This document shows positions 2,729-55,553 of a DNA stretch of 64,000 nucleotides, one piece after another. How positions within the stretch are numbered: the stretch's first letter is position 1; the number at the start of each line of letters is the position of its first letter. Below the pieces are notes generated by a model. The model ran no database searches. It saw only the letters and a program-made list of their open reading frames with translations, and had not been told where the DNA came from. This DNA is from Tachypleus tridentatus (taxonomy: Eukaryota; Arthropoda; Merostomata; Xiphosura; Limulidae): positions 496,001-560,000 of the forward strand of contig NC_134831.1 of assembly GCF_004210375.1 (NCBI RefSeq), given 5' to 3'. The position numbers and the translations under genes are program-made.

Positions 2729-2861
2729 ACAAATTCCAGTCAAGCGTTCAACTAATCCCCGAAAAAATTGTGGAAGGTCTTTCCTTCTCCTCCAACGTAA
2801 GATTATGTTAAAATCTTCCGTCACTGTTTACGATGCTGGTACACAACAAGAAGGCACACAT

Positions 2862-2907
2862 AGGGGCTCGACCTTCGATTGCAGTCGATGCTCTTGAGTT
2901 ACACCCC
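2862..2907 (-). pseudogene. tRNA-Cys relic with internal deletion (unit 0)
   Basis: Located exactly where the first near-clean unit should carry its tRNA. The acceptor ends (AGGGGC and ACACCCC) and TTGCAGTCGATGCTCT survive, but about 24 bases covering most of the T arm and variable loop are gone, and the D arm is altered (TTGAGTTAC). The downstream T-run seen in other copies is also broken (ACAAGAAGG on plus). It cannot fold as a tRNA. Spacing to the next tRNA is 2572 bp. Confidence 0.85.
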
Positions 2908-3390
2908 TCGATTATTTATTTTAACAGTTAGTACATTAATTTGAAACCATATTCTTGAGATTTCTTCGTTAGTAGTGATGAACGTATGAAATTATTTCAA
3001 GTGGCACCTGTGAAAACAGTTCCTTGAAAGTTCTTACAAAAATGACATTCCACTGAACAAGTAGGCTTATAATAATGTTTGGTACACAACATAACATGCA
3101 AATGTAACATGATTAACTTGACACTTAATGTTTATTGTTCTCAGGATGATATAATACTGTGACTTTTTGTTTTCGCGTTTGTAGCACCTTCGACTTATCA
3201 GTGTAAAGCCCAATGTCAATTGATTTGTTGACATTCGTTATAGGTATATATAAAAATAAATTATAAACAGAAACTGAATTAAACGAAATCACATCACGGT
3301 GTTTAGATTACCTCTATTCGTACATTCGGGAAAGAGAGGCCACGAGTTTTTAGGAAGTGCCATTGAACATGATATTTTGTATATGGTGTC

Positions 3391-3654
3391 ATAGGCCAGG
3401 TATTTAGGGGTCTCGACTTGCAATCTCATGGTCGCGGGATGGAATCTCCGTCACACCCAAAATACTCGCCTTTTCAGTCGTGGTGGAGTTATAAAGTGGC
3501 TCTTTATCCTATTCATCGTTGGTTAAAGATTAGCCAAAGATTTGGCGGTGGGTGGTGATGACTAGCTGTTTCTCCTCTAGTTCTAAACTGCTAAATAAGG
3601 GACGGCTAACATAGATAGACATGCTTTAGATTTGCGCGAAAAGTAGAAACAAAC
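3391..3654 (+). mobile_element. Embedded family-1 SINE relic, unit 0
   Basis: Each unit carries this diverged family-1 SINE in the opposite orientation to the tRNA. It can be followed from ATAGGCCAGGTATTTAGG (head), through GGTCGCGGGATGGAATCTCC (former B box, now GGATGGAATCT), ATTCATCGTTGGTTAAAG, TTTGGCGGTGGGTGGTGATG, to GATTTGCGCGAAAAGTAG. The A box is degraded and no target-site duplication is visible, so the insertion predates amplification of the array and is probably inactive. Diagnostic sites in this copy: CCTCTAGTTC, TTAGATTTG, run of four G after TTTA. Confidence 0.85.
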
Positions 3655-5434
3655 ATTTCACCTTCCGTTGCTGATTTAGTGACAGGTACTAAATGAGAAA
3701 ACGAAATATCAGAGACTCTATATAGAAATACTGAGAAAAAAAATGTGAATGTGCATTTGGATGTTATGCAAGTTGTACGGGTGACAAAAGTATTTTAACT
3801 CCTTACATGAACATTATTTTTCACTTGGATTTCTCGGAAAATGAATCACAGTGACGTCGTCAATTCACAGACCAATCTTATGCAAATTATCTGATTTTTA
3901 AATATAGCAAACTCCTACATTTTACTAAAGCTTGCTATTAAAAATGGGAATTGTAGTCATAATTTTATCAACTATACGGGAGTAAAGGAACTGACCTTGA
4001 CCATATTCTGTTATGTAATTAATCATTTCTAAACACTCAAGTATTCGAATTTTGTCTTTCCCCACGATGAATTTGACTACTTTGCCAATTTTTTGTTCTT
4101 GTAAACAAAACACACTTCTTAAACAATGTTTTATATTCAGTGATATTTACATTACAGTATATGTGTATATATATATTTGAAGAGAACAATAAACACTTAC
4201 TTCATATGGTATTTCTACAATGTGAAGTTATAATGATGAATATGCTTATGTATTTGTTTTGTGTTTACGCCTTCCGCTGTCTCTAATTTTTGACTACTGA
4301 CTAGAAGCAAGGCAGCCAGTCAGAATCATTCTAGCACCGACAGTACACGCTAGAAGATTTACTGTTGCTAATACGATGCAACGAAATCTTAATGTGCAAG
4401 AAATATTATGTGGTATTGTATAAAATCTAACGCCAATCGCCAGCATTGAATTTCTGAGCTCCTCCAGAGAGCCAATTCGAGCCTGTATGCTTATAATGTT
4501 ATATTGGATCATTTATTACCAAATTAAGAGAAAAGTAGGTTTTCGCTTAAATACCATATTCTCTCTATTTGAACGATCGATCGTCACTTTACCTTTTGTA
4601 ATATTTTTCGCCAAAGATATCGAAATACTTAAATGTTTTTATGAAGCTGTGATGTAACAGGTCCATTCAATGTAATATAGTAATGGACCATAATTTGCTA
4701 AAGACTCTGTTTTACATCCGACACTGTAAATCAAGCGACGCAAGTGAAAATAAGAATGATCTCTTAGGTTAGGCCTAGTATCACTACCCTCCAAACAAAC
4801 TAACGGTGACGTGGCGCGCATGTGGTCGTATTCACTCAGTGAACGAAAAGAAACACTGGTTGTATACCCTGATGTACTAACACACACACAAAATATCACA
4901 TTGTTACAGTTTTACAAACTTTAAGAAAATTTGTACAGAATAAGAACCCATCGTAAGAACCATTTGATGGATACGAGGATTTGAACTGACGAGTTTTGAG
5001 TTATGAAATTCCGCGATATTTCGAACGAGAAGCTTGACGAGTATGTAGAATTTTATTTAACAGCGTGACTATCAAATAGGTATGGATATTTGGAACTGTG
5101 CATAGAGAAAACTATGTAACGTAGAGAAAAATATGTGTAAAATACACGCATAAAGAGAAATGTGTTCCACTGGCTTGTGTACAATTCATTCGAATTTGTA
5201 TACTTATTTAGATTCATTTAAACTGTTTAATTTCCAGTGACTACAGGTTTACTTATTTGTAGTTGAGAACGATAACAAGTTCCAATTGTCGAACTTTGAA
5301 TCACAAATTCCAGTCAAGCGTTCAACTAATCCCCGAAAAAATTGTGGAAGGTCTTTCCTTCTCCTCCAACGTAAGATTATGTTAAAATCTTCCGTCACTG
5401 TTTACGATGTTGGTAAACAACAAAAGGTACACAT

Positions 5435-5504
5435 AGGGGCGCCTGGATTGAACCAGGGACCTCTCGATCTGCAGTCGAATGCTCTACCACTGAGCTACAC
5501 CCCC
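5435..5504 (-). tRNA. tRNA-Cys (GCA), unit 1, 70 nt as assembled
   Basis: Anticodon stem-loop, D arm and 5' acceptor strand are intact. The 3' side reads AGGGGCGCCTGG on plus, one G and one further base shorter than the full-length copies. With the missing base restored the T stem would be a perfect CCTGG/CCAGG. The downstream terminator is T4 (plus 5422-5425). First non-decayed tRNA of the array. The shortening may be a consensus error and not a real deletion. Confidence 0.85.
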
Positions 5505-5993
5505 TCGATTATTTATTTTTAACAGTTAGGATAATGTACATTAATTTGAAACCATATTCTTGAGATTTCTTCGTTAGTTGTGATGAACGTATGAAATTAT
5601 TTCAAGTGGCACCTGTGAAAACAGTTCCTTGAAAGTTCTTACAAAATGACATTCCACTGAACAAGTAGGCTTATAATAATGTTTGGTACACAACATAACA
5701 TGCAAATGTAACATGATTAACTTGACACTTAATGTTTATTGTTCTCAGGATGATATAACACCGTGACTTTTTGTTTTCGCGTTTGTAGCACCTTCGACTT
5801 ATCAGTGTAAAGCCCAATGTCAATTGATTTGTTGACATTCGTTATAGGTATATATAAAAATAAATTATAAACAGAAACTGAATTAAACGAAATCACATCA
5901 CGGTGTTTAGATTACCTCTATTCGTTCATTCGGGAAAGAGAGGCCACGAGTTTTAGGAAGTGCCATTGAACATGATATTTTGTATATGGTGTC

Positions 5994-6256
5994 ATAGGCC
6001 AGGTATTTAGGGTCTCGACTTGCAATCTCATGGTCGCGGGATGGAATCTCCGTCACACCCAAAATACTCGCCTTTTCAGTCGTGGTGGAGTTATAAAGTG
6101 GCTCTTTATCCTATTCATCGTTGGTTAAAGATTAGCCAAAGATTTGGCGGTGGGTGGTGATGACTAGCTGTTTCTCCACTAGTTCTAAACTGCTAAATAA
6201 GGGACGGCTAACATAGATAGACATGCTTTAGATTTGCGCGAAAAGTAGAAACAAAC
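5994..6256 (+). mobile_element. Embedded family-1 SINE relic, unit 1
   Basis: Diagnostic sites CCACTAGTTC and TTAGATTTG, with a run of three G after TTTA. Confidence 0.85.
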
Positions 6257-8030
6257 ATTTCACCTTCCGTTGCTGATTTAGTGACAGGTACTAAATGAGA
6301 AAACGAAATATCAGAGACTCTATATAGAAATACTGAGAAAAAAATGTGAATGTGCATTTGGATGTTATGCAAGTTGTACGGGTGACAAAAGTATTTTAAC
6401 TCCTTACATGAACATTATTTTTCACTTGGATTTCTCGGAAAATGAATCACAGTGACGTCGTCAATTCACAGACCAATCTTATGCAAATTATCTGATTTTA
6501 AATATAGCAAACTCCTACATTTTACTAAAGCTTGCTATTAAAAAATGGGAATTGTAGTCATAATTTTATCAACTATACGGGAGTAAAGGAAGTGACCTTG
6601 ACCATATTCTGTTATGTAATTAATCATTTCTAAACACTCAAGTATTCGAAATTTGTCTTTCCCGACGATGAATTTGCCAATTTTTTGTTCTTGTAAACAA
6701 AACACACTTCTTAAACAATGTTTTATATTCAGTGATATTTACATTACAGTATATGTGTATATATATATATATTTGAAGAGAACAATAAACACTTACTTCA
6801 TATGGTATTTCTACAATGTGAAGTTATAATGATGAATATGCTTATGTATTTGTTTTGTGTTTACGCCTTCCGCTGTCTCTAATTTTGACTACTGACTAGA
6901 AGCAAGGCAGCCAGTCAGAGTCATTCTAGCACCGACAGTACACGCTACAAGATTTACTGTTGTTAATACGATGCAACGAAATCTTAATGTGCAAGAAATA
7001 TTATGTGGTATTGTATAAAATCTAACGCCAATCGCCAGCATTGAATTTCTGAGCTCCTCCAGAGGGCCATTTCGAGCCTGTATGCTTATAATGTTATATT
7101 GGATCATTTATTACCAAATTAAGAGAAAAGTAGGTTTTCGCTTAAATACCATATTCTCTCTATTTGAACGATCGATCGTCACTTTACCTTTTGTAATATT
7201 TTTCGCCAAAGATATCGAAATACTTAAATGTTTTATGAAGCTGTGATGTAACAGGTCCATTCAATGTAATATAGTAATGGACCATAATTTGCTAAAGACG
7301 TTGTTTTACATCCGACACTGTAAATCAAGCGACGTAAGTGAAAATAAGAATGATCTCTTAGGTTAGGCCTAGTATCACTACCCTCCAAACAAACTAACGG
7401 TGACGTGGCGCGCATGTGGTCGTATTCACTCAGTGAACGAAAAGAAACACTGGTTGTATACCCTGATGTACTAACACACACACACAAAATATCACATTGT
7501 TACAGTTTTACAAACTTTAAGAAAATTTGTACATAATAAGAACCCATCGTAAGAACCATTTGGTGGATACGAGGATTTGAACTGACGAGTTTTGAGTTAT
7601 GGAATTCCGCGATATTTCGAACGAGAAGCTTGAAGAGTATGTAGAGTTTTATTTTACAGCGTGACTATCAAATAGGTATGGATATTTGGAACTGTGCATA
7701 GAGAAAACTATGTAACGTAGAGAAAAATATGTGTAAAATACACGCATAAAGAGAAATGTGTTCCACTGGCTTGTGTACAATTCATTCGAATTTGTATAAT
7801 TATTTAGACTCATTTAAACTGTTTAATTTCCAGTGACTACAGGTTTACTTATTTGTAGTTGAGAACGATAACAAGTTCCAATTGTCGAACTTTGAATCAC
7901 AAATTCCAGTCAAGCGTTCAACTAATCCCCGAAAAAATTGTGGAAGGTCTTTCCTTCTCCTCCAACGTGAGATTATGTTAAAATCTTCCGTTACTGTTTA
8001 CGATGTTGGTACACAACAAAAGGTACACAT

Positions 8031-8099
8031 AGGGGCGCCGGGATTGAACCAGGGACCTCTCGATCTGCAGTCGAATGCTCTACCACTGAGCTACACCCC
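8031..8099 (-). tRNA. tRNA-Cys (GCA), unit 2, 69 nt as assembled
   Basis: Plus strand reads AGGGGCGCCGGGATTG and ends ACACCCC. One base is lost from each of three homopolymers relative to the 72-nt form (GGGGG, CCC and CCCCC). Arms and anticodon are otherwise unchanged. T4 terminator at 8018-8021. Confidence 0.85.
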
Positions 8100-8588
8100 T
8101 CGATTATTTATTTTAACAGTTAGGATAATGTACATTAATTTGAAACCATATTCTTGAGATTTCTTCGTTAGTAGTGATGAACGTATGAAATTATTTCAAG
8201 TGGCACCTGTGAAAACAGTTCCTTGAAAGTTCTTACAAAAATGACATTCCACTGAACAAGTAGGCTTATAATAATGTTTGGTACACAACATAACATGCAA
8301 ATGTAACATGATTAACTTGACACTTAATGTTTATTGTTCTCAGGATGATATAATACTGTGACTTTTGTTTTCGCGTTTGTAGCACCTTCGACTTATCAGT
8401 GTAAAGCCCAATGTCAATTGATTTGTTGACATTCGTTATAGGTATATATAAAAATAAATTATAAACAGAAACTGAATTAAACGAAATCACATCACTGTGT
8501 TTAGATTACCTCTATTCGTACATTCGGGAAAGAGAGGCCACGAGTTTTTAGGAAGTGCCATTGAACATGATATTTTGTATATGGTGTC

Positions 8589-8852
8589 ATAGGCCAGGTA
8601 TTTAGGGGTCTCGACTTGCAATCTCATGGTCGCGGGATGGAATCTCCGTCACACCCAAAATACTCGCCTTTTCAGTCGTGGTGGAGTTATAAAGTGGCTC
8701 TTTATCCTATTCATCGTTGGTTAAAGATTAGCCAAAGATTTGGCGGTGGGTGGTGATGACTAGCTGTTTCTCCACTAATTCTAAACTGCTAAATAAGGGA
8801 CGGCTAACATAGATAGACATGCTTTAGATTTGCGCGAAAAGTAGAAACAAAC
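8589..8852 (+). mobile_element. Embedded family-1 SINE relic, unit 2
   Basis: Diagnostic sites CCACTAATTC and TTAGATTTG, four G after TTTA. The CCACTAATTC form is shared with units 3, 4 and 13. Confidence 0.85.
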
Positions 8853-10634
8853 ATTTCACCTTCCGTTGCTGATTTAGTGACAGGTACTAAATGAGAAAAC
8901 GAAATATCAGAGACTCTATATAGAAATACTGAGAAAAAAAATGTGAATGTGCATTTGGATGATATGCAAGTTGTACGGGTGACAAAAGTATTTTAACTCC
9001 TTACATGAACATTATTTTTCACTTGGATTTCTCGGAAAATGAATCACAGTGACGTCGTCAATTCACAGACCAATCTTATGCAAATTATCTGATTTTTAAA
9101 TATAGCAAACTCCTACGTTTTACTAAAGCTTGCTATTAAAAAATGGGAATTGTAGTCATAATTTTATCAACTATACGGGAGTAAAGGAAGTGACCTTGAC
9201 CATATTCTGTTATGTAATTAATCACTTCTAAACACTCAAGTATTCGAAATTTGTCTTTCCCGACGATGAATTTGACTACTTTGCCAATTTTTTGTTCTTG
9301 TAAACAAAACACACTTCTTAAACAATGTTTTATATTCAGTGATATTTACATTACAGTATATGTGTATATATATATTTGAAGAGAACAATAAACACTTACT
9401 TCATATGGTATTTCTACAATGTGAAGTTATAATGATGAATATGCTTATGTATTTGTTTTGTGTTTACGCCTTCCGCTGTCTCTAATTTTGACTACTGACT
9501 AGAAGCAAGGCAGCCAGTCAGAATCATTCTAGCACCGACAGTACACGCTAGAAGATTTACTGTTGCTAATACGATGCAACGAAATCTTAATGTGCAAGAA
9601 ATATTATGTGGTATTGTATAAAATCTAACGCCAATCGCTAGCATTGAATTTTGAGCTCCTCCAGAGGGCCATTTCGAGCCTGTATGCTTATAATGTTATA
9701 TTGGATCATTTATTACCAAATTAAGAGAAAAGTAGGTTTTCCCTTAAATACCATATTCTCTCTATTTGAACGATCGATCGTCACTTTACCTTTTGTAATA
9801 TTTTTCGCCAAAGATATCGAAATACTTAAATGTTTTTATGAAGCTGTGATGTAACAGGTCCATTCACTTTAATATAGTAATGGACCATAATTTGCTAAAG
9901 ACGTTGTTTTACATCCGACACTGTAAATCAAGCGACGTAAGTGAAAATAAGAATGCTCTCTTAGGTTAGGCCTAGTATCACTACCCTCCAAACAAACTAA
10001 CGGTGACGTGGCGCGCATGTGGTCGTATTCACTCAGTGAACGAAAAGAAACACTGGTTGTATACCCTGATGTACTAACACACACACACAAAATATCACAT
10101 TGTTACAGTTTTACAAACTTTAAGAAAATTTGTACATAATAAGAACCCATCGTAAGAACCATTTGGTGGATACGAGGATTTGAACTGACGAGTTTTGAGT
10201 TATGGAATTCCGCGATATTTCGAACGAGAAGCTTGAAGAGTATGTAGAGTTTTATTTTACAGCGTGACTATCAAATAGGTATGGATATTTGGAACTGTGC
10301 ATAGAGAAAACTATGTAACGTAGAGAAAAATATGTGTAAAATACACGCATAAAGAGAAATGTGTTCCACTGGCTTGTGTACAATTCATTCGAATTTGTAT
10401 AATTATTTAGACTCATTTAAACTGTTTAATTTCCAGTGACTACAGGTTTACTTATTTGTAGTTGAGAACGATAACAAGTTCCAATTGTCGAACTTTGAAT
10501 CACAAATTCCAGTCAAGCGTTCAATTAATCCCCGAAAAAATTGTGGAAGGTCTTTCCTTCTCCTCCAACGTAAGATTATGCTAAAATCTTCCGTTACTGT
10601 TTACGATGTTGGTACACAACAAAAAGGTACACAT

Positions 10635-10705
10635 AGGGGGCGCCCGGGATTGAACCAGGGACCTCTCGATCTGCAGTCGAATGCTCTACCACTGAGCTAC
10701 ACCCC
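10635..10705 (-). tRNA. tRNA-Cys (GCA), unit 3, 71 nt as assembled
   Basis: The 3' acceptor strand and T arm are full length (AGGGGGCGCCCGGG on plus), but the 5' end has four instead of five G. T5 terminator at 10621-10625. Probably functional if the missing G is a consensus error. Confidence 0.9.
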
Positions 10706-11194
10706 TCGATTATTTATTTTAACAGTTAGGATAATGTACATTAATTTGAAACCATATTCTTGAGATTTCTTCGTTAGTAGTGATGAACGTATGAAATTAT
10801 TTCAAGTGGCACCTGTGAAAACAGTTCCTTGAAAGTTCTTACAAAATGACATTCCACTGAACAAGTAGGCTTATAATAATGTTTGGTACACAACATAACA
10901 TGCAAATGTAACATGATTAACTTGACACTTAATGTTTATTGTTCTCAGGATGATATAATACTGTGACTTTTTGTTTTCGCGTTTGTAGCACCTTCGACTT
11001 ATCAGTGTAAAGCCCAATGTCAATTGATTTGTTGACATTCGTTATAGGTATATATAAAAATAAATTATAAACAGAAACTGAATTAAACGAAATCACATCA
11101 CTGTGTTTAGATTACCTCTATTCGTACATTCGGGAAAGAGAGGCCACGAGTTTTTAGGAAGTGCCATTGAACATGATATTTTGTATATGGTGTC

Positions 11195-11458
11195 ATAGGC
11201 CAGGTATTTAGGGGTCTCGACTTGCAATCTCATGGTCGCGGGATGGAATCTCCGTCACACCCAAAATACTCGCCTTTTCAGTCGTGGTGGAGTTATAAAG
11301 TGGCTCTTTATCCTATTCATCGTTGGTTAAAGATTAGCCAAAGATTTGGCGGTGGGTGGTGATGACTAGCTGTTTCTCCACTAATTCTAAACTGCTAAAT
11401 AAGGGACGGCTAACATAGATAGACATGCTTTAGATTTGCGCGAAAAGTAGAAACAAAC
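11195..11458 (+). mobile_element. Embedded family-1 SINE relic, unit 3
   Basis: Diagnostic sites CCACTAATTC and TTAGATTTG, four G after TTTA. Confidence 0.85.
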
Positions 11459-13236
11459 ATTTCACCTTCCGTTGCTGATTTAGTGACAGGTACTAAATGA
11501 GAAAACGAAATATCAGAGACTCTATATAGAAATACTGAGAAAAAAAATGTGAATGTGCATTTGGATGATATGCAAGTTGTACGGGTGACAAAAGTATTTT
11601 AACTCCTTACATGAACATTATTTTTCACTTGATTTCTCGGAAAATGAATCACAGTGACGTCGTCAATTCACAGACCAATCTTATGCAAATTATCTGATTT
11701 TAAATATAGCAAACTCCTACATTTTACTAAAGCTTGCTATTAAAAAATGGGAATTGTAGTCATAATTTTATCAACTATACGGGAGTAAAGGAAGTGACCT
11801 TGACCATATTCTGTTATGTAATTAATCACTTCTAAACACTCAAGTATTCGAAATTTGTCTTTCCCGACGATGAATTTGACTACTTTGCCAATTTTTGTTC
11901 TTGTAAACAAAACACACTTCTTAAACAATGTTTTATATTCAGTGATATTTACATTACAGTATATGTGTATATATATATTTGAAGAGAACAATAAACACTT
12001 ACTTCATATGGTATTTCTACAATGTGAAGTTATAATGATGAATATGCTTATGTATTTGTTTTGTGTTTACGCCTTCCGCTGTCTCTAATTTTGACTACTG
12101 ACTAGAAGCAAGGCAGCCAGTCAGAATCATTCTAGCACCGACAGTACACGCTAGAAGATTTACTGTTGCTAATACGATGCAACGAAATCTTAATGTGCAA
12201 GAAATATTATGTGGTATTGTATAAAATCTAACGCCAATCGCTAGCATTGAATTTTTGAGCTCCTCCAGAGGGCCATTTCGAGCCTGTATGCTTATAATGT
12301 TATATTGGATCATTTATTACCAAATTAAGAGAAAAGTAGGTTTTCCTTAAATACCATATTCTCTCTATTTGAACGATCGATCGTCACTTTACCTTTTGTA
12401 ATATTTTTCGCCAAAGATATCGAAATACTTAAATGTTTTATGAAGCTGTGATGTAACAGGTCCATTCACTTTAATATAGTAATGGACCATAATTTGCTAA
12501 AGACGTTGTTTTACATCCGACACTGTAAATCAAGCGACGTAAGTGAAAATAAGAATGCTCTCTTAGGTTAGGCCTAGTATCACTACCCTCCAAACAAACT
12601 AACGGTGACGTGGCGCGCATGTGGTCGTATTCACTCAGTGAACGAAAAGAAACACTGGTTGTATACCCTGATGTACTAACACACACACACAAAATATCAC
12701 ATTGTTACAGTTTTACAAACTTTAAGAAAATTTGTACATAATAAGAACCCATCGTAAGAACCATTTGGTGGATACGAGGATTTGAACTGACGAGTTTTGA
12801 GTTATGGAATTCCGCGATATTTCGAACGAGAAGCTTGAAGAGTATGTAGAGTTTTATTTTACAGCGTGACTATCAAATAGGTATGGATATTTGGAACTGT
12901 GCATAGAGAAAACTATGTAACGTAGAGAAAAATATGTGTAAAATACACGCATAAAGAGAAATGTGTTCCACTGGCTTGTGTACAATTCATTCGAATTTGT
13001 ATAATTATTTAGACTCATTTAAACTGTTTAATTTCCAGTGACTACAGGTTTACTTATTTGTAGTTGAGAACGATAACAAGTTCCAATTGTCGAACTTTGA
13101 ATCACAAATTCCAGTCAAGCGTTCAATTAATCCCCGAAAAAATTGTGGAAGGTCTTTCCTTCTCCTCCAACGTAAGATTATGCTAAAATCTTCCGTTACT
13201 GTTTACGATGTTGGTACACAACAAAAAGGTACACAT

Positions 13237-13305
13237 AGGGGCGCCAGGATTGAACCAGGGACCTCTCGATCTGCAGTCGAATGCTCTACCACTGAGCTAC
13301 ACCCC
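13237..13305 (-). tRNA. tRNA-Cys (GCA), unit 4, 69 nt as assembled, CCAGG variant
   Basis: Plus strand reads GCGCCAGGATTG where full-length copies read GCGCCCGGGATTG. Read literally, the T-stem partner of T51 becomes T, a mismatch. This is the only copy with CCAGG here. T5 terminator at 13223-13227. It is either a weakened gene or a miscalled base in a CCCGGG context. Confidence 0.8.
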
Positions 13306-13794
13306 TCGATTATTTATTTTAACAGTTAGGATAATGTACATTAATTTGAAACCATATTCTTGAGATTTCTTCGTTAGTAGTGATGAACGTATGAAATTAT
13401 TTCAAGTGGCACCTGTGAAAACAGTTCCTTGAAAGTTCTTACAAAATGACATTCCACTGAACAAGTAGGCTTATAATAATGTTTGGTACACAACATAACA
13501 TGCAAATGTAACATGATTAACTTGACACTTAATGTTTATTGTTCTCAGGATGATATAATACTGTGACTTTTTGTTTTCGCGTTTGTAGCACCTTCGACTT
13601 ATCAGTGTAAAGCCCAATGTCAATTGATTTGTTGACATTCGTTATAGGTATATATAAAAATAAATTATAAACAGAAACTGAATTAAACGAAATCACATCA
13701 CTGTGTTTAGATTACCTCTATTCGTACATTCGGGAAAGAGAGGCCACGAGTTTTTAGGAAGTGCCATTGAACATGATATTTTGTATATGGTGTC

Positions 13795-14058
13795 ATAGGC
13801 CAGGTATTTAGGGGTCTCGACTTGCAATCTCATGGTCGCGGGATGGAATCTCCGTCACACCCAAAATACTCGCCTTTTCAGTCGTGGTGGAGTTATAAAG
13901 TGGCTCTTTATCCTATTCATCGTTGGTTAAAGATTAGCCAAAGATTTGGCGGTGGGTGGTGATGACTAGCTGTTTCTCCACTAATTCTAAACTGCTAAAT
14001 AAGGGACGGCTAACATAGATAGACATGCTTTAGATTTGCGCGAAAAGTAGAAACAAAC
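13795..14058 (+). mobile_element. Embedded family-1 SINE relic, unit 4
   Basis: Diagnostic sites CCACTAATTC and TTAGATTTG, four G after TTTA. Confidence 0.85.
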
Positions 14059-42749: not shown

Positions 42750-43238
42750 TCGATTATTTATTTTAACAGTTAGGATAATGTACATTAATTTGAAACCATA
42801 TTCTTGAGATTTCTTCGTTAGTAGTGATGAACGTATGAAATTATTTCAAGTGGCACCTGTGAAAACAGTTCCTTGAAAGTTCTTACAAAAATGACATTCC
42901 ACTGAACAAGTAGGCTTATAATAATGTTTGGTACACAACATAACATGCAAATGTAACATGATTAACTTGACACTTAACGTTTATTGTTCTCAGGATGATA
43001 TAATACTGTGACTTTTTGTTTTCGCGTTTGTAGCACCTTCGACTTATCAGTGTAAAGCCCAATGTCAATTGATTTGTTGACATTCGTTATAGGTATATAT
43101 AAAAATAAATTATAAACAGAAACTGAATTAAACGAAATCACATCACTGTGTTTAGATTACCTCTATTCGTACATTCGGGAAAGAGAGGCCACGAGTTTTA
43201 GGAAGTGCCATTGAACATGATATTTTGTATATGGTGTC

Positions 43239-43502
43239 ATAGGCCAGGTATTTAGGGGTCTCGACTTGCAATCTCATGGTCGCGGGATGGAATCTCCGTC
43301 ACACCCAAAATACTCGCCTTTTCAGTCGTGGTGGAGTTATAAAGTGGCTCTTTATCCTATTCATCGTTGGTTAAAGATTAGCCAAAGATTTGGCGGTGGG
43401 TGGTGATGACTAGCTGTTTCTCCTCTAGTTCTAAACTGCTAAATAAGGGACGGCTAACATAGATAGACATGCTTTAGCTTTGCGCGAAAAGTAGAAACAA
43501 AC
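43239..43502 (+). mobile_element. Embedded family-1 SINE relic, unit 15
   Basis: Diagnostic sites CCTCTAGTTC and TTAGCTTTG, four G after TTTA. Confidence 0.85.
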
Positions 43503-45283
43503 ATTTCACCTTCCGTTGCTGATTTAGTGACAGGTACTAAATGAGAAAACGAAATATCAGAGACTCTATATAGAAATACTGAGAAAAAAAATGTGAATGT
43601 GCATTTGGATGTTATGCAAGTTGTACGGGTGACAAAAGTATTTTAACTCCTTACATGAACATTATTTTTCACTTGGATTTCTCGGAAAATGAATCACAGT
43701 GACGTCGTCAATTCACAGACCAATCTTATGCAAATTATCTGATTTTAAATATAGCAAACTCCTACATTTTACTAAAGCTTGCTATTAAAAAATGGGAATT
43801 GTAGTCATAATTTTATCAACTATACGGGAGTAAAGGAAGTGACCTTGACCATATTCTGTTATGTAATTAATCACTTCTAAACACTCAAGTATTCGAAATT
43901 TGTCTTTCCCGACGATGAATTTGACTACTTTGCCAATTTTTTGTTCTTGTAAACAAAACACACTTCTTAAACAATGTTTTATATTCAGTGATATTTACAT
44001 TACAGTATATGTGTATATATATATTTGAAGAGAACAATAAACACTTACTTCATATGGTATTTCTACAATGTGAAGTTATAATGATGAATATGCTTATGTA
44101 TTTGTTTTGTGTTTACGCCTTCCGCTGTCTCTAATTTTGACTACTGACTAGAAGCAAGGCAGCCAGTCAGAATCATTCTAGCACCGACAGTACACGCTAG
44201 AAGATTTACTGTTGCTAATACGATGCAACGAAATCTTAATGTGCAAGAAATATTATGTGGTATTGTATAAAATCTAACGCCAATCGCTAGCATTGAATTT
44301 TTGAGCTCCTCCAGAGGGCCATTTCGAGCCTGTATGCTTATAATGTTATATTGGATCATTTATTACCAAATTAAGAGAAAAGTAGGTTTTCCTTAAATAC
44401 CATATTCTCTCTATTTGAACGATCGATCGTCACTTTACCTTTTGTAATATTTTTCGCCAAAGATATCGAAATACTTAAATGTTTTTATGAAGCTGTGATG
44501 TAACAGGTCCATTCACTTTAATATAGTAATGGACCATAATTTGCTAAAGACGTTGTTTTACATCCGACACTGTAAATCAAGCGACGTAAGTGAAAATAAG
44601 AATGATCTCTTAGGTTAGGCCTAGTATCACTACCCTCCAAACAAACTAACGGTGACGTGGCGCGCATGTGGTCGTATTCACTCAGTGAACGAAAAGAAAC
44701 ACTGGTTGTATACCCTGATGTACTAACACACACACACAAAATATCACATTGTTACAGTTTTACAAACTTTAAGAAAATTTGTACATAATAAGAACCCATC
44801 GTAAGAACCATTTGGTGGATACGAGGATTTGAACTGACGAGTTTTGAGTTATGGAATTCCGCGATATTTCGAACGAGAAGCTTGACGAGTATGTAGAGTT
44901 TTATTTTACAGCGTGACTATCAAATAGGTATGGATATTTGGAACTGTGCATAGAGAAAACTATGTAACGTAGAGAAAAATATGTGTAAAATACACGCATA
45001 AAGAGAAATGTGTTCCACTGGCTTGTGTACAATTCATTCGAATTTGTATAATTATTTAGATTCATTTAAACTGTTTAATTTCCAGTGACTACAGGTTTAC
45101 TTATTTGTAGTTGAGAACGATAACAAGTTCCAATTGTCGAACTTTGAATCACAAATTCCAGTCAAGCGTTCAACTAATCCCCGAAAAAATTGTGGAAGGT
45201 CTTTCCTTCTCCTCCAACGTAAGATTATGTTAAAATCTTCCGTCACTGTTTACGATGTTGGTACACAACAAAAAGGTACACAT

Positions 45284-45354
45284 AGGGGCGCCCGGGATTG
45301 AACCAGGGACCTCTCGATCTGCAGTCGAATGCTCTACCACTGAGCTACACCCCC
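45284..45354 (-). tRNA. tRNA-Cys (GCA), unit 16, 71 nt as assembled
   Basis: Differs from the canonical gene only by one C fewer in the 3' acceptor strand (AGGGGCGCCCGGG on plus). T5 terminator at 45270-45274. Confidence 0.91.
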
Positions 45355-45844
45355 TCGATTATTTATTTTTAACAGTTAGGATAATGTACATTAATTTGAA
45401 ACCATATTCTTGAGATTTCTTCGTTAGTAGTGATGAACGTATGAAATTATTTCAAGTGGCACCTGTGAAAACAGTTCCTTGAAAGTTCTTACAAAAATGA
45501 CATTCCACTGAACAAGTAGGCTTATAATAATGTTTGGTACACAACATAACATGCAAATGTAACATGATTAACTTGACACTTAATGTTTATTGTTCTCAGG
45601 ATGATATAATACTGTGACTTTTGTTTTCGCGTTTGTAGCACCTTCGACTTATCAGTGTAAAGCCCAATGTCAATTGATTTGTTGACATTCGTTATAGGTA
45701 TATATAAAAATAAATTATAAACAGAAACTGAATTAAACGAAATCACATCACGGTGTTTAGATTACCTCTATTCGTACATTCGGGAAAGAGAGGCCACGAG
45801 TTTTTAGGAAGTGCCATTGAACATGATATTTTGTATATGGTGTC

Positions 45845-46108
45845 ATAGGCCAGGTATTTAGGGGTCTCGACTTGCAATCTCATGGTCGCGGGATGGAATC
45901 TCCGTCACACCCAAAATACTCGCCTTTTCAGTCGTGGTGGAGTTATAAAGTGGCTCTTTATCCTATTCATCGTTGGTTAAAGATTAGCCAAAGATTTGGC
46001 GGTGGGTGGTGATGACTAGCTGTTTCTCCTCTAGTTCTAAACTGCTAAATAAGGGACGGCTAACATAGATAGACATGCTTTAGCTTTGCGCGAAAAGTAG
46101 AAACAAAC
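45845..46108 (+). mobile_element. Embedded family-1 SINE relic, unit 16
   Basis: Diagnostic sites CCTCTAGTTC and TTAGCTTTG, four G after TTTA. The same unit carries the 9-bp deletion near 46530. Confidence 0.85.
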
Positions 46109-47884
46109 ATTTCACCTTCCGTTGCTGATTTAGTGACAGGTACTAAATGAGAAAACGAAATATCAGAGACTCTATATAGAAATACTGAGAAAAAAAATGT
46201 GAATGTGCATTTGGATGTTATGCAAGTTGTACGGGTGACAAAAGTATTTTAACTCCTTACATGAACATTATTTTTCACTTGGATTTCTCGGAAAATGAAT
46301 CACAGTGACGTCGTCAATTCACAGACCAATCTTATGCAAATTATCTGATTTTTAAATATAGCAAACTCCTACATTTTACTAAAGCTTGCTATTAAAAAAT
46401 GGGAATTGTAGTCATAATTTTATCAACTATACGGGAGTAAAGGAAGTGACCTTGACCATATTCTGTTATGTAATTAATCATTTCTAAACACTCAAGTATT
46501 CGAAATTCGTCTTTCCCGACGATGAATTTGCCAATTTTTTGTTCTTGTAAACAAAACACACTTCTTAAACAATGTTTTATATTCAGTGATATTTACATTA
46601 CAGTATATGTGTATATATATATTTGAAGAGAACAATAAACACTTACTTCATATGGTATTTCTACAATGTGAAGTTATAATGATGAATATGCTTATGTAAT
46701 TGTTTTATGTTTACGCCTTCCGCTGTCTCTAATTTTTTGACTACTGACTAGAAGCAAGGCAGCCAGTCAGAGTCATTCTAGCACCGACAGTACACGCTAC
46801 AAGATTTACTGTTGTTAATACGATGCAACGAAATCTTAATGTGCAAGAAATATTATGTGGTATTGTATAAAATCTAACGCCAATCGCCAGCATTGAATTT
46901 CTGAGCTCCTCCAGAGGGCCAATTCGAGCCTGTATGCTTATAATGTTATATTGGATCATTTATTACCAAATTAAGAGAAAAGTAGGTTTTCGCTTAACTA
47001 CCATATTCTCTCTATTTGAACGATTGATCGTCACTTTACCTTTTGTAATATTTTTCGCCAAAGATATCGAAATACTTAAATGTCCTTATAAAGCTGTGAT
47101 GTAACAGGTCCATTCAATTTAATATAGTAATGGATCATAGTTTGCTAAAGACGTTGTTTTACATCCGACACTGTAAATCAAGCGACGCAAGTGAAAATAA
47201 GAATGGTCTCTTAGGTTAGGCCTAGTATCACTACCCTCCAAACAAACTAACGGTGACGTGGCGCGCATGTGGTCGTATTCACTCAGTGAACGAAAAGAAA
47301 CACTGGTTGTATACCCTGATGTACTAACACACACACACAAAATATCACATTGTTACAGTTTTACAAACTTTAAGAAAATTTGTACATAATAAGAACCCAT
47401 CGTAAGAACCATTTGGTGGATACGAGGATTTGAACTGACGAGTTTTGAGTTATGGAATCTCGCGATATTTCGAACGAGAAGCTTGACGAGTATGTAGAGT
47501 TTTATTTTACAGCGTGACTATCAAATAGTTATGGATATTTGGAACTGTGCATAGAGAAAACTATGTAACGTAGAGAAAAATATGTGTAAAATACACGCAT
47601 AAAGAGAAATGTGTTCCACTGGCTTGTGTACAATTCATTCGAATTTGTATAATTATTTAGACTCATTTAAACTGTTTAAATTCCAGTGACTACAGGTTTA
47701 CTTATTTGTAGTTGAGAACGATAACAAGTTCCAATTGTCGAACTTTGAATCACAAATTCCAGTCAAGCGTTCAACTAATCCCCGAAAAAATTGTGGAAGG
47801 TCTTCCCTTCTCCTCCAACGTGAGATTATGTTAAAATCTTCCGTTACTGTTTACGATGTTGGTACACAACAAAAAGGTACACAT

Positions 47885-47956
47885 AGGGGGCGCCCGGGAT
47901 TGAACCAGGGACCTCTCGATCTGCAGTCGAATGCTCTACCACTGAGCTACACCCCC
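47885..47956 (-). tRNA. tRNA-Cys (GCA), unit 17, canonical 72 nt
   Basis: Equals the unit 6 gene. T5 terminator at 47871-47875. Confidence 0.96.
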
Positions 47957-48152
47957 TCGATTATTTATTTTTAACAGTTAGGATAATGTACATTAATTTG
48001 AAACCATATTCTTGAGATTTCTTCGTTAGTAGTGATGAACGTATGAAATTATTTCAAGTGGCACCTGTGAAAACAGTTCCTTGAAAGTTCTTACAAAAAT
48101 GACATTCCACTGAACAAGTAGGCTTATAATAATGTTTGGTACACAACATAAC

Positions 48153-48160
48153 ATGCAAAT
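48153..48160 (+). promoter_or_regulatory. Octamer motif ATGCAAAT, first of two per unit (example unit 17)
   Basis: A perfect ATGCAAAT lies about 0.27 kb from the tRNA 5' end side, in the block ACATGCAAATGTAACATG that recurs in the units. The octamer binds POU-domain factors and occurs in some Pol II and Pol III promoters. Function here is not shown, and one 8-bp match in 2.6 kb can arise by chance. Confidence 0.3.
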
Positions 48161-48446
48161 GTAACATGATTAACTTGACACTTAACGTTTATTGTTCCAG
48201 GATGATATAATACTGTGACTTTTTGTTTTCGCGTTTGTAGCACATTCGACTTATCAGTGTAAAGCCCAATGTCAATTGATTTGTTGACATTCGTTATAGG
48301 TATATATAAAAATAAATTATAAACAGAAACTGAATTAAACGAAATCACATCACGGTGTTTAGTTAACCTCTATTCGTACATTCGGGAAAGAGAGGCCACG
48401 AGTTTTTAGGAAGTGCCATTGAACATGATATTTTGTATATGGTGTC

Positions 48447-48710
48447 ATAGGCCAGGTATTTAGGGGTCTCGACTTGCAATCTCATGGTCGCGGGATGGAA
48501 TCTCCGTCACACCCAAAATACTCGCCTTTTCAGTCGTGGTGGAGTTATAAAGTGGCTCTTTATCCTATTCATCGTTGGTTAAAGATTAGCCAAAGATTTG
48601 GCGGTGGGTGGTGATGACTAGCTGTTTCTCCTCTAGTTCTAAACTGCTAAATAAGGGACGGCTAACATAGATAGACATGCTTTAGCTTTGCGCGAAAAGT
48701 AGAAACAAAC
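48447..48710 (+). mobile_element. Embedded family-1 SINE relic, unit 17
   Basis: Diagnostic sites CCTCTAGTTC and TTAGCTTTG, four G after TTTA. Confidence 0.85.
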
Positions 48711-48907
48711 ATTTCACCTTCCGTTGCTGATTTAGTGACAGGTACTAAATGAGAAAACGAAATATCAGAGACTCTATATAGAAATACTGAGAAAAAAAAT
48801 GTGAATGTGCATTTGGATGTTATGCAAGTTGTACGGGTGACAAAAGTATTTTAACTCCTTACATGAACATTATTTTTCACTTGGATTTCTCGGAAAATGA
48901 ATCACAG

Positions 48908-49058
48908 TGACGTCGTCAATTCACAGACCAATCTTATGCAAATTATCTGATTTTAAATATAGCAAACTCCTACATTTTACTAAAGCTTGCTATTAAAAAA
49001 TGGGAATTGTAGTCATAATTTTATCAACTATACGGGAGTAAAGGAAGTGACCTTGACC
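48908..49058 (+). promoter_or_regulatory. Conserved CRE / CCAAT / octamer / nuclear-receptor-like cluster (example unit 17)
   Basis: TGACGTCG (48908-48915), CCAAT (48928-48932) and ATGCAAAT (48936-48943) fall within 36 bp. TGACCTTGACC (49048-49058) follows about 100 bp later; its complement contains TCAAGGTCA, the FTZ-F1/ERR type of monomeric nuclear receptor site. A TATA-like TTTTAAATATAG sits just after the octamer. The same cluster is kept in the core units. It could be a Pol II promoter or enhancer for an unannotated non-coding transcript. No transcript or coding frame downstream was recognised, and conservation between units reflects homogenisation and so does not prove selection. Confidence 0.35.
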
Positions 49059-50477
49059 ATATTCTGTTATGTAATTAATCACTTCTAAACACTCAAGTAT
49101 TCGAAATTTGTCTTTCCCGACGATGAATTTGACTACTTTGCCAATTTTTTGTTCTTGTAAACAAAACACACTTCTTAAACAATGTTTTATATTCAGTGAT
49201 ATTTACATTACAGTATATGTGTATATATATATTTGAAGAGAACAATAAACACTTACTTCATATGGTATTTCTACAATGTGAAGTTATAATGATGAATATG
49301 CTTATGTATTTGTTTTGTGTTTACGCCTTCCGCTGTCTCTAATTTTGACTACTGACTAGAAGCAAGGCAGCCAGTCAGAATCATTCTAGCACCGACAGTA
49401 CACGCTAGAAGATTTACTGTTGCTAATACGATGCAACGAAATCTTAATGTGCAAGAAATATTATGTGGTATTGTATAAAATCTAACGCCAATCGCTAGCA
49501 TTGAATTTTTGAGCTCCTCCAGAGGGCCATTTCGAGCCTGTATGCTTATAATGTTATATTGGATCATTTATTACCAAATTAAGAGAAAAGTAGGTTTTCC
49601 TTAAATACCATATTCTCTCTATTTGAACGATCGATCGTCACTTTACCTTTTGTAATATTTTTCGCCAAAGATATCGAAATACTTAAATGTTTTATGAAGC
49701 TGTGATGTAACAGGTCCATTCAATTTAATATAGTAATGGACCATAATTTGCTAAAGACGTTGTTTTACATCCGACACTGTAAATCAAGCGACGTAAGTGA
49801 AAATAAGAATGCTCTCTTAGGTTAGGCCTAGTATCACTACCCTCAAACAAACTAACGGTGACGTGGCGCGCATGTGGTCGTATTCACTCAGTGAACGAAA
49901 AGAAACACTGGTTGTATACCCTGATGTACTAACACACACACACAAAATATCACATTGTTACAGTTTTACAAACTTTAAGAAAATTTGTACATAATAAGAA
50001 CCCATCGTAAGAACCATTTGGTGGATACGAGGATTTGAACTGACGAGTTTTGAGTTATGGAATTCCGCGATATTTCGAACGAGAAGCTTGACGAGTATGT
50101 AGAGTTTTATTTTACAGCGTGACTATCAAATAGGTATGGATATTTGGAACTGTGCATAGAACTATGTAAAAAATATGTGTAAAATACACGCATAAAGAGA
50201 AATGTGTTCCACTGGCTTGTGTACAATTCATTCGAATTTGTATTATTATTTAGATTCATTTAAACTGTTTAATTTCCAGTGACTACAGGTTTACTTATTT
50301 GTAGTTAAGAACGATAACAAGTTCCAATTGTCGAACTTTGAATCACAAATTCCAGTCAAGCGTTCAACTAATCCCCGAAAAAATTGTGGAAGGTCTTCCC
50401 TTCTCCTCCAACGTAAGATTATGTTAAAATCTTCCGTTACTGTTTACGATGTTGGTACACAACAAAAAGGTACACAT

Positions 50478-50549
50478 AGGGGGCGCCCGGGATTGAACCA
50501 GGGACCTCTCGATCTGCAGTCGAATGCTCTACCACTGAGCTACACCCCC
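50478..50549 (-). tRNA. tRNA-Cys (GCA), unit 18, canonical 72 nt
   Basis: Equals the unit 6 gene, with anticodon complement TGC at plus 50515-50517. T5 terminator at 50464-50468. Spacing to the previous tRNA is 2593 bp, the shortest in the array, owing to a small deletion near 50160. Confidence 0.96.
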
Positions 50550-51039
50550 TCGATTATTTATTTTTAACAGTTAGGATAATGTACATTAATTTGAAACCAT
50601 ATTCTTGAGATTTCTTCGTTAGTAGTGATGAACGTATGAAATTATTTCAAGTGGCACCTGTGAAAACAGTTCCTTGAAAGTTCTTACAAAAATGACATTC
50701 CACTGAACAAGTAGGCTTATAATAATGTTTGGTACACAACATAACATGCAAATGTAACATGATTAACTTGACACTTAACGTTTATTGTTCCAGGATGATA
50801 TAATACTGTGACTTTTTGTTTTCGCGTTTGTAGCACATTCGACTTATCAGTGTAAAGCCCAATGTCAATTGATTTGTTGACATTCGTTATAGGTATATAT
50901 AAAAATAAATTATAAACAGAAACTGAATTAAACGAAATCACATCACGGTGTTTAGATTACCTCTATTCGTACATTCGAGAAAAAGAGGCCACGAGTTTTT
51001 AGGAAGTGCTATTGAACATGATATTTTGTATATGGTGTC

Positions 51040-51303
51040 ATAGGCCAGGTATTTAGGGGTCTCGACTTGCAATCTCATGGTCGCGGGATGGAATCTCCGT
51101 CACACCCAAAATACTCGCCTTTTCAGTCGTGGTGGAGTTATAAAGTGGCTCTTTATCCTATTCATCGTTGGTTAAAGATTAGCCAAAGATTTGGCGGTGG
51201 GTGGTGATGACTAGCTGTTTCTCCTCTAGTTCTAAACTGCTAAATAAGGGACGGCTAACATAGATAGACATGCTTTAGCTTTGCGCGAAAAGTAGAAACA
51301 AAC
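51040..51303 (+). mobile_element. Embedded family-1 SINE relic, unit 18
   Basis: Diagnostic sites CCTCTAGTTC and TTAGCTTTG, four G after TTTA. Confidence 0.85.
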
Positions 51304-52624
51304 ATTTCACCTTCCGTTGCTGATTTAGTGACAGGTACTAAATGAGAAAACGAAATATCAGAGACTCTATATAGAAATACTGAGAAAAAAAATGTGAATG
51401 TGCATTTGGATGTTATGCAAGTTGTACGGGTGACAAAAGTATTTTAACTCCTTACATGAACATTATTTTTTACTTGGATTTCTCGGAAAATGAATCACAG
51501 TGACGTCGTCAATTCACAGACCAATCTTATGCAAATTATCTGATTTTTAAATATAGCAAACTCCTACATTTTACTAAAGCTTGCTATTAAAAATGGGAAT
51601 TGTAGTCATAATTTTATCAACTATACGGGAGTAAAGGAAGTGACCTTGACCATATTCTGTTATGTAATTAATCACTTCTAAACACTCAAGTATTCGAAAT
51701 TTGTCTTTCCCGACGATGAATTTGACTACTTTGCCAATTTTTTTTGTTCTTGTAAACAAAACACACTTCTTAAACAATGTTTTATATTCAGTGATATTTA
51801 CATTACAGTATATGTGTATATATATATTTGAAGAGAACAATAAACACTTACTTCATATGGTATTTCTACAATGTGAAGTTATAATGATGAATATGCTTAT
51901 GTATTTGTTTTGTGTTTACGCCTTCCGCTGTCTCTAATTTTTTGACTACTGACTAGAAGCAAGGCAGCCAGTCAGAATCATTCTAGCACCGACAGTACAC
52001 GCTAGAAGATTTACTGTTGCTAATACGATGCAACGAAATCTTAATGTTCAAGAAATATTATGTGGTATTGTATAAAATCTAACGCCAATCGCTAGCATTG
52101 AATTTTTGAGCTCCTCCAGAGGGCCATTTCGAGCCTGTATGCTTATAATATTATATAAGATCATTTATTACCAAATTAAGAGAAAAGTAGGTTTTCCCTT
52201 AAATACCATATTCTCTCTATTTGAACGATCGATCGTCACTTTACCTTTTGTAATATTTTTCGCCAAAGATATCGAAATACTTAAATGTTTTTATGAAGCT
52301 GTGATGTAACAGGTCCATTCACTTTAATATAGTAATGGACCATAATTTGCTAAAGACGTTGTTTTACATCCGACACTGTAAATCAAGCGACGTAAGTGAA
52401 AATAAGAATGCTCTCTTAAATTAGGCCTAGTATCACTACCCTCCCAAACAAACTAACGGTGACGTGGCGCGCATGTGGTCGTATTCACTCAGTGAACGAA
52501 AAGAAACACTGGTTGTATACCTTGATGTACTAACACACACACACAAAATATCACATTGTTACAGTTTTACAAACTTTAAGAAAATTTGTACATAATAAGA
52601 ACCCATCGTAAGAACCATTTGGTG

Positions 52625-52660
52625 GATACGAGGATTTGAACTGACGAGTTTTGAGTTATG
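52625..52660 (-). other. tRNA-like fragment in each unit (example before unit 19)
   Basis: On the minus strand the unit reads GTCAGTTCAAATCCTCGTAT followed by CCACC, which looks like a T-loop and acceptor end (TTCAAAT) or a SINE head remnant (compare GGTTCGAATCCCCGTCACAC). The presumed T stem does not pair and no anticodon arm can be drawn, so this is at most a fossil. It recurs once per unit, roughly 0.4 kb before the tRNA on plus. Confidence 0.35.
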
Positions 52661-53071
52661 GAATTCCGCGATATTTCGAACGAGAAGCTTGACGAGTATG
52701 TAGAGTTTTATTTTACAGCGTGACTATCAAATAGGTATGGATATTTGGAACTGTGCATAGAGAAAAATATGAGTAAAATACACGCATAAAGAGAAATGTG
52801 TTCCACTGGCTTGTGTACAATTCATTCGAATTTGTATTATTATTTAGATTCATTTAAACTGTTTAATTTCCAGTGACTACAGGTTTACTTATTTGTAGTT
52901 GAGAACGATAACAAGTTCCAATTGTCGAACTTTGAATCACAAATTCCAGTCAAGCGTTCAACTAATCCCCGAAAAAATTGTGGAAGGTCTTTCCTTCTCC
53001 TCCAACGTAAGATTATGTTAAAATCTTCCGTCACTGTTTACGATGTTGGTACACAACAAAAGGGTACACAC

Positions 53072-53143
53072 AGGGGGCGCCCGGGATTGAACCAGGGACC
53101 TCTCGATCTGCAGTCGAATGCTCTACCACTGAGCTACACCCCC
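53072..53143 (-). tRNA. tRNA-Cys (GCA), unit 19, canonical 72 nt, last of the array
   Basis: The 72-nt body equals unit 6. The downstream flank differs, with AAAAGGGTACACACAGG on plus where others have AAAAAGGTACACATAGG, leaving a T4 terminator at 53058-53061. The next unit to the right loses its tRNA position altogether. Confidence 0.95.
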
Positions 53144-53634
53144 TCGATTATTTATTTTTAACAGTTAGGATAATGTACATTAATTTGAAACCATATTCTT
53201 GAGATTTCTTCGTTAGTAGTGATGAACGTATGAAATTATTTCAAGTGGCACCTGTGAAAACAGTTCCTTGAAAGTTCTTACAAAAATGACATTCCACTGA
53301 ACAAGTAGGCTTATAATAATGTTTGGTACACAACATAACATGCAAATGTAACATGATTAACTTGACACTTAATGTTTATTGTTCTCAGGATGATATAATA
53401 CTGTGACTTTTTGTTTTCGCGTTTGTAGCACCTTCGACTTATCAGTGTAAAGCCCAATGTCAATTGATTTGTTGACATTCGTTATAGGTATATATAAAAA
53501 TAAATTATAAACAGAAACTGAATTAAACGAAATCACATCACGGTGTTTAGTTAACCTCTATTCGTACATTCGGGAAAGAGAGGCCACGAGTTTTTAGGAA
53601 GTGCCATTGAACATGATATTTTGTATATGGTGTC

Positions 53635-53898
53635 ATAGGCCAAATATTTAGGGGTCTCGACTTGCAATCTCATGGTCGCGGGATGGAATCTCCGTCACAC
53701 ACAAAATACTCGCCTTTTCAGTCGTGGTGGAGTTATAAAGTGGCTCTTTATCCTATTCATCGTTGGTTAAAGATTAGCCAAAGATTTGGCGGTGGGTGGT
53801 GATGACTAGCTGTTTCTCCTCTAGTTCTAAACTGCTAAATAAGGGACGGCTAACATAGATAGACATGCTTTAGCTTTGCGCGAAAAGTAGAAACAAAC
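53635..53898 (+). mobile_element. Embedded family-1 SINE relic, unit 19
   Basis: Diagnostic sites CCTCTAGTTC and TTAGCTTTG, four G after TTTA. Private changes: CCAAATATTTA for CCAGGTATTTA, and CACACACAAAATAC for CACACCCAAAATAC. Confidence 0.85.
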
Positions 53899-55399
53899 AT
53901 TTCACCTTCCGTTGCTGATTTAGTGACAGGTACTAAATGAGAAAACGAAATATCAGAGACTCTATATAGAAATACTGAGAAAAAAAAATGTGAATGTGCA
54001 TTTGGATGTTATGCAAGTTGTACGGGTGACAAAAGTATTTTAACTCCTTACATGAACATTATTTTTACTTGGATTTCTCGGAAAATGAATCACAGTGACG
54101 TCGTCAATTCACAGACCAATCTTATGCAAATTATCTGATTTTTAAATATAGCAAACTCCTACATTTTACTAAAGCTTGCTATTAAAAAATGGGAATTGTA
54201 GTCATAATTTTATCAACTATACGGGAGTAAAGGAAGTGACCTTGACCATATTCTGTTATGTAATTAATCACTTCTAAACACTCAAGTATTCGAAATTTGT
54301 CTTTCCCGACGATGAATTTGACTACTTTGCCAATTTTTTGTTCTTGTAAACAAAACACACTTCTTAAACAATGTTTTATATTCAGTGATATTTACATTAC
54401 AGTATATGTGTATATATATATTTGAAGAGAACAATAAACACTTACTTCATATGGTATTTCTACAATGTGAAGTTATAATGATGAATATGCTTATGTATTT
54501 GTTTTGTGTTTACGCCTTCCGCTGTCTCTAATTTTTGACTACTGACTAGAAGCAAGGCAGCCAGTCAGAATCATTCTAGCACCGACAGTACACGCTAGAA
54601 GATTTACTGTTGCTAATACGATGCAACGAAATCTTAATGTTCAAGAAATATTATGTGGTATTGTATAAAATCTAACGCCAATCGCTAGCATTGAATTTTT
54701 GAGCTCCTCCAGAGGGCCATTTCGAGCCTGTATGCTTATAATATTATATAAGATCATTTATTACCAAATTAAGAGAAAAGTAGGTTTTCCCTTAAATACC
54801 ATATTCTCTCTATTTGAACGATCGATCGTCACTTTACCTTTTGTAATATTTTTCGCCAAAGATATCGAAATACTTAAATGTTTTTATGAAGCTGTGATGT
54901 AACAGGTCCATTCACTTTAATATAGTAATGGACCATAATTTGCTAAAGACGTTGTTTTACATCCGACACTGTAAATCAAGCGACGTAAGTGAAAATAAGA
55001 ATGCTCTCTTAGGTTAGGCCTAGTATCACTACCCTCCAAACAAACTAACGGCGACGTGGCGCGCATGTGGTCGTATTCACTCAGTGAACGAAAAGAAACA
55101 CTGGTTGTATACTTTGATGTACTAACACACACACACAAAATATCACATTGTTACAGTTTTACAAACTTTAAGAAAATTTGTACATAATAAGAACCCATGG
55201 TAAGAACCATTTGATGGATACGAGGATTTGAACTGACGACTTGGGAGTGATGAAATTCCGCGATATTTCGAACGAGAAGTTTGACGAGTATGTAGAGTTT
55301 TATTTTACAGCGTGACTATCAAATAGATATGGATATTTGGAACTCTGCATAGAGAAAACTATGTAACGTAGAGAAAGAAAATGTGTAAAATACACGCAT

Positions 55400-55553
55400 A
55401 AAACAAGAGTATAAAGTCCAATGTCACCTGATTTGTTGACATATGTTATACGTATATATAAAAATAAATAATCAACTGAAACTTATTTAAACGAAATCGC
55501 ATCACGCTGTTTCGATTATCTTTATGCGTTTATTCAGGAAGGATAGGCTTTCA
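55400..55553 (-). repeat. Decayed unit piece at the right edge, tRNA region missing
   Basis: Up to about 55400 the sequence matches the pre-tRNA half of a unit. It then jumps to AAAGTCCAATGTCACCTGAT, the counterpart of AAAGCCCAATGTCAATTGAT, which normally lies some 0.37 kb beyond the tRNA. The piece continues through ATATATAAAAATAAATAATC and AACGAAATCGCATCACGCTG to about 55553. Around 0.7 kb including the tRNA-Cys gene is absent. Divergence rises steeply across this boundary. Confidence 0.8.

Follow-up and report, generated by a model that had tools for sequence, protein, structure and literature searches.

The 64,000-nt stretch of Tachypleus tridentatus DNA analyzed here (the window) raises the question of why a single cysteine tRNA gene should recur at regular intervals on a unit of kilobase length. 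The copies could have been kept for the tRNA that they supply, carried along passively by a satellite, multiplied by the assembly, or spread and homogenized by recombination. The reading that we favor, at a probability of roughly 0.7, is a recombination-driven nuclear tandem array made of a Pol III tRNA-Cys(GCA) gene together with ~2.5 kb of non-coding neighbor DNA.

Extent and regularity of the array

ARAGORN called 18 tRNA-Cys(GCA) genes in the whole window, all on the minus strand between 5434 and 53144, and the same 18 genes were matched by Rfam RF00005 at 46–67 bits (cut-off 29 bits), so that a cloverleaf fold with a GCA anticodon is supported by both methods. This bears out a preliminary description of the locus, which had claimed an array of at least 18 tRNA-Cys(GCA) genes in a single orientation on a 2.6 kb unit. 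There is one gene per ~2.60 kb unit, and the starts of successive genes are 2593–2607 nt apart except across an assembly gap, where the distance is 6020 nt (31451 to 37471). In a self-BLAST that used a unit cut at one tRNA as the query, unit pairs were 97.7–100% identical over ~2600 nt, which excludes a chance origin of the repeat. The near-constant spacing and near-identical units described earlier are therefore confirmed outside the gap, and the limits given at the time, 2729 and 55400, are at most two bases off (the stretch of near-identical sequence extends from 2728 to 55402). About twenty unit copies lie head to tail, 18 of them with a readable tRNA-Cys gene (Table 1). Tandem Repeats Finder did not report the array, the longest period handled by that program (500) being below the unit length. 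The head-to-tail arrangement of near-identical, kilobase-scale units, with a core more uniform than the edges, is that of a tandem tRNA array evolving in concert, and the tRNA sequence, the SINEs, and a Tc1 element point to an animal nuclear genome.

Since a gap of 500 N lies inside the array, its copy number is not fixed. Gaps of this fixed size are typical of Hi-C scaffolding. The left contig terminates within an apparent tRNA 3′ end and the right contig opens in the middle of a unit, so that the gap probably conceals at least one tRNA copy. The truncated unit near the start of the right contig is missing ~1.9 kb including the tRNA, and ~55 bases at its joint (35605–35661) are unmatched to the unit; either a real deletion or a misassembly at the contig end could have produced it.

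Table 1. Positions of the array, its tRNA-Cys genes, and related features in the window.
Feature	Position	Strand	Evidence
Remainder of old collinear unit copy, pieces ~60–70% identical, with its own SINE insertion (~1932–2188)	323..2664	-	nhmmer
20th tRNA-Cys copy, decayed relic in old diverged unit, 78% over 65 columns	2665..2727	-	nhmmer, sequence
Homogeneous tandem array, ~2.60 kb unit; 18 units complete, others partial (both ends, gap)	2728..55402	-	self-BLAST and nhmmer with unit profile
19th tRNA-Cys copy, many small deletions, outermost left unit, not called as tRNA (limits approximate)	2862..2908	-	sequence
tRNA-Cys(GCA) 1	5434..5504	-	ARAGORN, Rfam
tRNA-Cys(GCA) 2	8030..8100	-	ARAGORN, Rfam
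tRNA-Cys(GCA) 3	10634..10707	-	ARAGORN, Rfam
tRNA-Cys(GCA) 4	13236..13306	-	ARAGORN, Rfam
tRNA-Cys(GCA) 5	15837..15907	-	ARAGORN, Rfam
tRNA-Cys(GCA) 6; perfect 72-nt consensus gene inside at 18437–18508	18436..18509	-	ARAGORN, Rfam, nhmmer
tRNA-Cys(GCA) 7; perfect consensus	21040..21113	-	ARAGORN, Rfam, nhmmer
tRNA-Cys(GCA) 8	23641..23711	-	ARAGORN, Rfam
tRNA-Cys(GCA) 9; perfect consensus	26241..26314	-	ARAGORN, Rfam, nhmmer
tRNA-Cys(GCA) 10; 3′ end damaged or misread; lowest Rfam score, 46.5 bits	28847..28916	-	ARAGORN, Rfam
tRNA-Cys(GCA) 11	31451..31521	-	ARAGORN, Rfam
500-N assembly gap within array	34056..34555	.	
Right contig start: partial unit, then truncated unit without tRNA stretch	34556..36172	-	self-BLAST, nhmmer
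tRNA-Cys(GCA) 12	37471..37541	-	ARAGORN, Rfam
tRNA-Cys(GCA) 13	40073..40146	-	ARAGORN, Rfam
tRNA-Cys(GCA) 14	42680..42750	-	ARAGORN, Rfam
tRNA-Cys(GCA) 15	45283..45354	-	ARAGORN, Rfam
tRNA-Cys(GCA) 16; perfect consensus	47884..47957	-	ARAGORN, Rfam, nhmmer
tRNA-Cys(GCA) 17; perfect consensus	50477..50550	-	ARAGORN, Rfam, nhmmer
tRNA-Cys(GCA) 18; perfect consensus	53071..53144	-	ARAGORN, Rfam, nhmmer
Old diverged unit pieces (83%, 73%), not in unit order, Tc1-like transposase between	55408..56789	-	nhmmer, Pfam
Other copies of the ~260 bp SINE-like family	1932–2188, 58810–59060, 60599–60851, 63516–63752		

The repeat unit outside the tRNA gene

The unit consensus is ~2.6 kb long with a GC content of ~35%, and its sole recognizable gene is the tRNA-Cys. 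Intact units contain no stop-to-stop ORF of at least 120 aa and a six-frame Pfam scan of the unit gave nothing above cut-off, on which grounds a transposon carrying a tRNA gene was rejected. No RNA family other than tRNA was matched in the unit by Rfam. Every unit also holds a ~260 bp element (consensus positions 481–740) that is roughly 70% alike to four copies in the flanks. The head of this element resembles a tRNA and includes sequence like an A box and a B box, which makes a tRNA-derived SINE, perhaps of a type found in chelicerates such as horseshoe crabs or spiders, its most likely identity. Viral contigs contained no exact match to the tRNA or to pieces of the SINE.

Integrity of the tRNA genes

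All 18 genes retain an undamaged A box (TAGCTCAGTGG), B box (GGTTCAATC), and GCA anticodon arm. The tRNA gene in the unit is followed by ATGTGTACC and then by a run of four to six T (T4–T6), which begins 9–11 nt beyond the discriminator base in 18/18 copies. Every gene thus has the Pol III signals, namely the two internal boxes and, downstream, four or more consecutive T, and judged by these signals all 18 look transcribable. The consensus gene ends in ...GCCCCCT at its 3′ end and so has the discriminator U73, which serves as an identity element of tRNA-Cys. Folding the tRNA by itself gave no useful signal (z = −0.9 and −1.5).

Six of the 18 genes are identical, perfect 72-mers, and the other 12 depart from the 72-nt consensus, in most cases through the insertion or deletion of one nucleotide within a G/C run. 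In the imperfect genes the 5′ run of G is four or five long, and CCGGGCGCCCCC near the 3′ terminus is replaced by CCGGCGCCCC, CAGGCGCCCC, CTGGCGCCCC, or AGGCGCC. Read literally, such variants would disrupt the acceptor stem or make the T loop shorter, and the indels and 3′-end changes of the 12 genes would, if real, weaken the acceptor or T stem. No support was found for a compensatory change linking a shorter G run at the 5′ end to the C run at the 3′ end, as copies with G4/C5 and with G5/C4 are both present.

The same kind of change is found across the whole unit, where 99 of 143 indel events fall within runs of at least 3 (22% of the bases) and 88 of the 143 within runs of at least 4 (9% of the bases). 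The share of copies with an altered run length climbs steeply as runs get longer, from 3% for G/C runs of length 3 to 15% at length 4 and 38% at length 5, and it is 22% for A/T runs of length 5. These homopolymer indels look like consensus error of an unpolished long-read assembly, but true slippage would give a similar picture. The CAGG and CTGG variants are more than a pure homopolymer change and may be real. Four of the 18 genes (5434, 15837, 31451, and 37471) have a CCAGG T stem with a 6-nt T loop in place of CCGGG and a 7-nt loop; this form exceeds a homopolymer slip and is possibly a real second isodecoder with a nearby misread.

Divergence and history of the array

Full units differ from one another by a mean pairwise substitution distance of 0.70%. 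Interior pairs mostly show 0.1–0.6% substitutions, edge units have a mean distance of 0.8–1.4% to other units, and the partial unit at the far left stands at about 2%. Distance rises with separation along the array (Spearman 0.46 for all units and 0.53 for interior units only; p about 0.0005, Mantel-type), and variants are common to neighboring units in blocks. Closer units are more alike, as unequal exchange would make them, and unequal crossing-over produces diverged edges around a uniform center with or without selection.

The flanks carry an older record of the same locus, with decayed unit pieces, 60–83% identical, on both sides. On the left, the homogeneous array begins exactly where the relic at 2665–2727 breaks off, at its 5′ end. 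Proteins of the left flank gave nothing above cut-off in Pfam. On the right, the Tc1-like transposase remnant (~55600–56520) contains stop codons and matches Pfam PF01498 with an E value of 3.6e-9. Because decayed unit pieces and a dead tRNA-Cys lie in the flanks, the locus is to be seen as an old one that was re-amplified and not as a fresh stutter of the assembly. The divergence and flank data together fit an old tandem locus with decayed edges and a recently re-amplified middle.

Origin and maintenance of the array

The sequence shows an earlier, smaller group of unit copies that has decayed at both edges, and a middle that is a recent, near-uniform expansion with variants common to nearby units. 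In the recombination-driven reading, misaligned units would exchange sequence by unequal crossing-over and gene conversion, which would both expand the array and keep it uniform, as the pattern of divergence suggests, and edge units that escape the exchange would decay. Transcription of intact genes would be driven by the A and B boxes inside them and end at the downstream T run, and by default their transcripts would be expected to join the pool of ordinary cysteine tRNA. Recombination drift would account for most of the copy number, and selection for tRNA dosage would act weakly or conditionally. The array could also be heterochromatic and silent.

A selected dosage array, whose copies would be kept for extra tRNA-Cys in particular tissues or stages, either for cysteine-rich secreted proteins or as a maternal tRNA stock, is in our view improbable, though it merits consideration since the tandem array is real and its genes look transcribable. 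Selected use has a precedent in the Arabidopsis SYY (Ser/Tyr) cluster, which is likewise a tandem tDNA array but has two isoacceptors where the present one has a single one; deletion of that array altered how a Ser/Tyr/Pro-rich glycoprotein builds up in cells of the root tip (PMC12308677). The same study, which tested expression, shows that such an array can meet tissue-specific tRNA demand (PMC12308677). A second precedent is provided by zebrafish, in which maternally deposited tRNAs derive from highly repetitive regions (PMC11417395). Against dosage selection, unequal exchange alone accounts for the uniformity and the copy number, and the decayed copies at both edges show that some copies disappear as well. 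More doubtful still is a locus dedicated to tRNA-Cys supply, whose one-isoacceptor array would be selected for dosage, become active in a tissue or at a stage with a high output of cysteine-rich secreted proteins, and perhaps serve as a main source of tRNA-Cys.

We place about as little weight on a neutral satellite with a passenger tRNA gene, in which most copies would be dead or silenced. Two-thirds of the tRNA copies are imperfect as read, one further copy is shredded and another a relic, a SINE sits inside the unit, and transposable elements adjoin the array, all of which would suit a satellite. However, the damage is mostly in homopolymers, like consensus errors, and 18/18 genes show no variation in either internal box or in the anticodon arm, although at such low divergence this invariance is weak evidence of selection.

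An assembly artefact, in which one or a few units were falsely expanded, would agree with the 500-N gap, the broken unit at the start of the right contig, and the dominance of homopolymers among unit differences, but a wholly false expansion is very unlikely because the units have distinct substitutions that are ordered along the array (common to neighboring blocks, with edge-to-center gradients) and decayed relatives on both sides, which imply that the locus was tandem long ago, and the two contigs run into different unique flanks.

Comparison with known tRNA arrays

The preliminary description had held long single-isoacceptor arrays to be unusual outside a few cases such as protists. This was too strong, given the large or tandem tRNA clusters of zebrafish, stickleback, and Nematostella (PMC2888827), the human 1q23.3 locus (PMC4041453), and a cluster in Arabidopsis (PMC10701932). 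Animal tDNA clusters of fifty or more genes exist, and homogeneous clusters that, like the present array, have genes for the same amino acid in parallel orientation are widespread; the survey that found them demanded a spacing below 1 kb, a limit that leaves out arrays of 2.6 kb units like the present one (PMC2888827).

The nearest known case is the single-isoacceptor tRNA-Cys(GCA) cluster on chromosome 5 of Arabidopsis thaliana, which is likewise made of tandem units with one tRNA-Cys(GCA) gene each (PMC10701932). It shares with the present array a tRNA-Cys pseudogene flanking one side, transposable-element sequence in the region, and, if the variants read here are real, many gene variants with mispaired stems (PMC10701932). 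The two differ in scale, the Arabidopsis reference having four units of ~420 bp that are 84–94% identical, compared with at least 18 units of 2.6 kb, mostly >98% identical, here (PMC10701932).

The human 1q23.3 tRNA VNTR resembles the present array in its kilobase-scale tandem units (98% identical) with tRNA genes and in the transposable-element remnants at its edges (PMC4041453). Its 7.3 kb units are GC-rich, bind CTCF, and carry several different tRNA genes each, and a VNTR of the human type was rejected here, the unit having one tRNA gene of one isoacceptor, no other Rfam match, and 35% GC. With 9–43 units per allele, the human locus is also a precedent for mere instability (PMC4041453). 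The arrays of Entamoeba are tandem units with tRNA genes as well, but nearly all tRNA genes are arrayed there, with up to 5 per unit and microsatellite-like repeats between genes, unlike the present array (PMC2652664).

The array is therefore a known arrangement that is unusually long for the one-tRNA type, and not a new kind. It shows clearly, and over a long stretch, how one tRNA gene can be caught up in tandem expansion, probably through recombination, the margins being old and decayed and the core recent and uniform. It also calls for caution with tRNA gene counts taken from draft long-read assemblies. Because copy number should vary between individuals, loci of this type make the effect of tRNA gene copy number testable.
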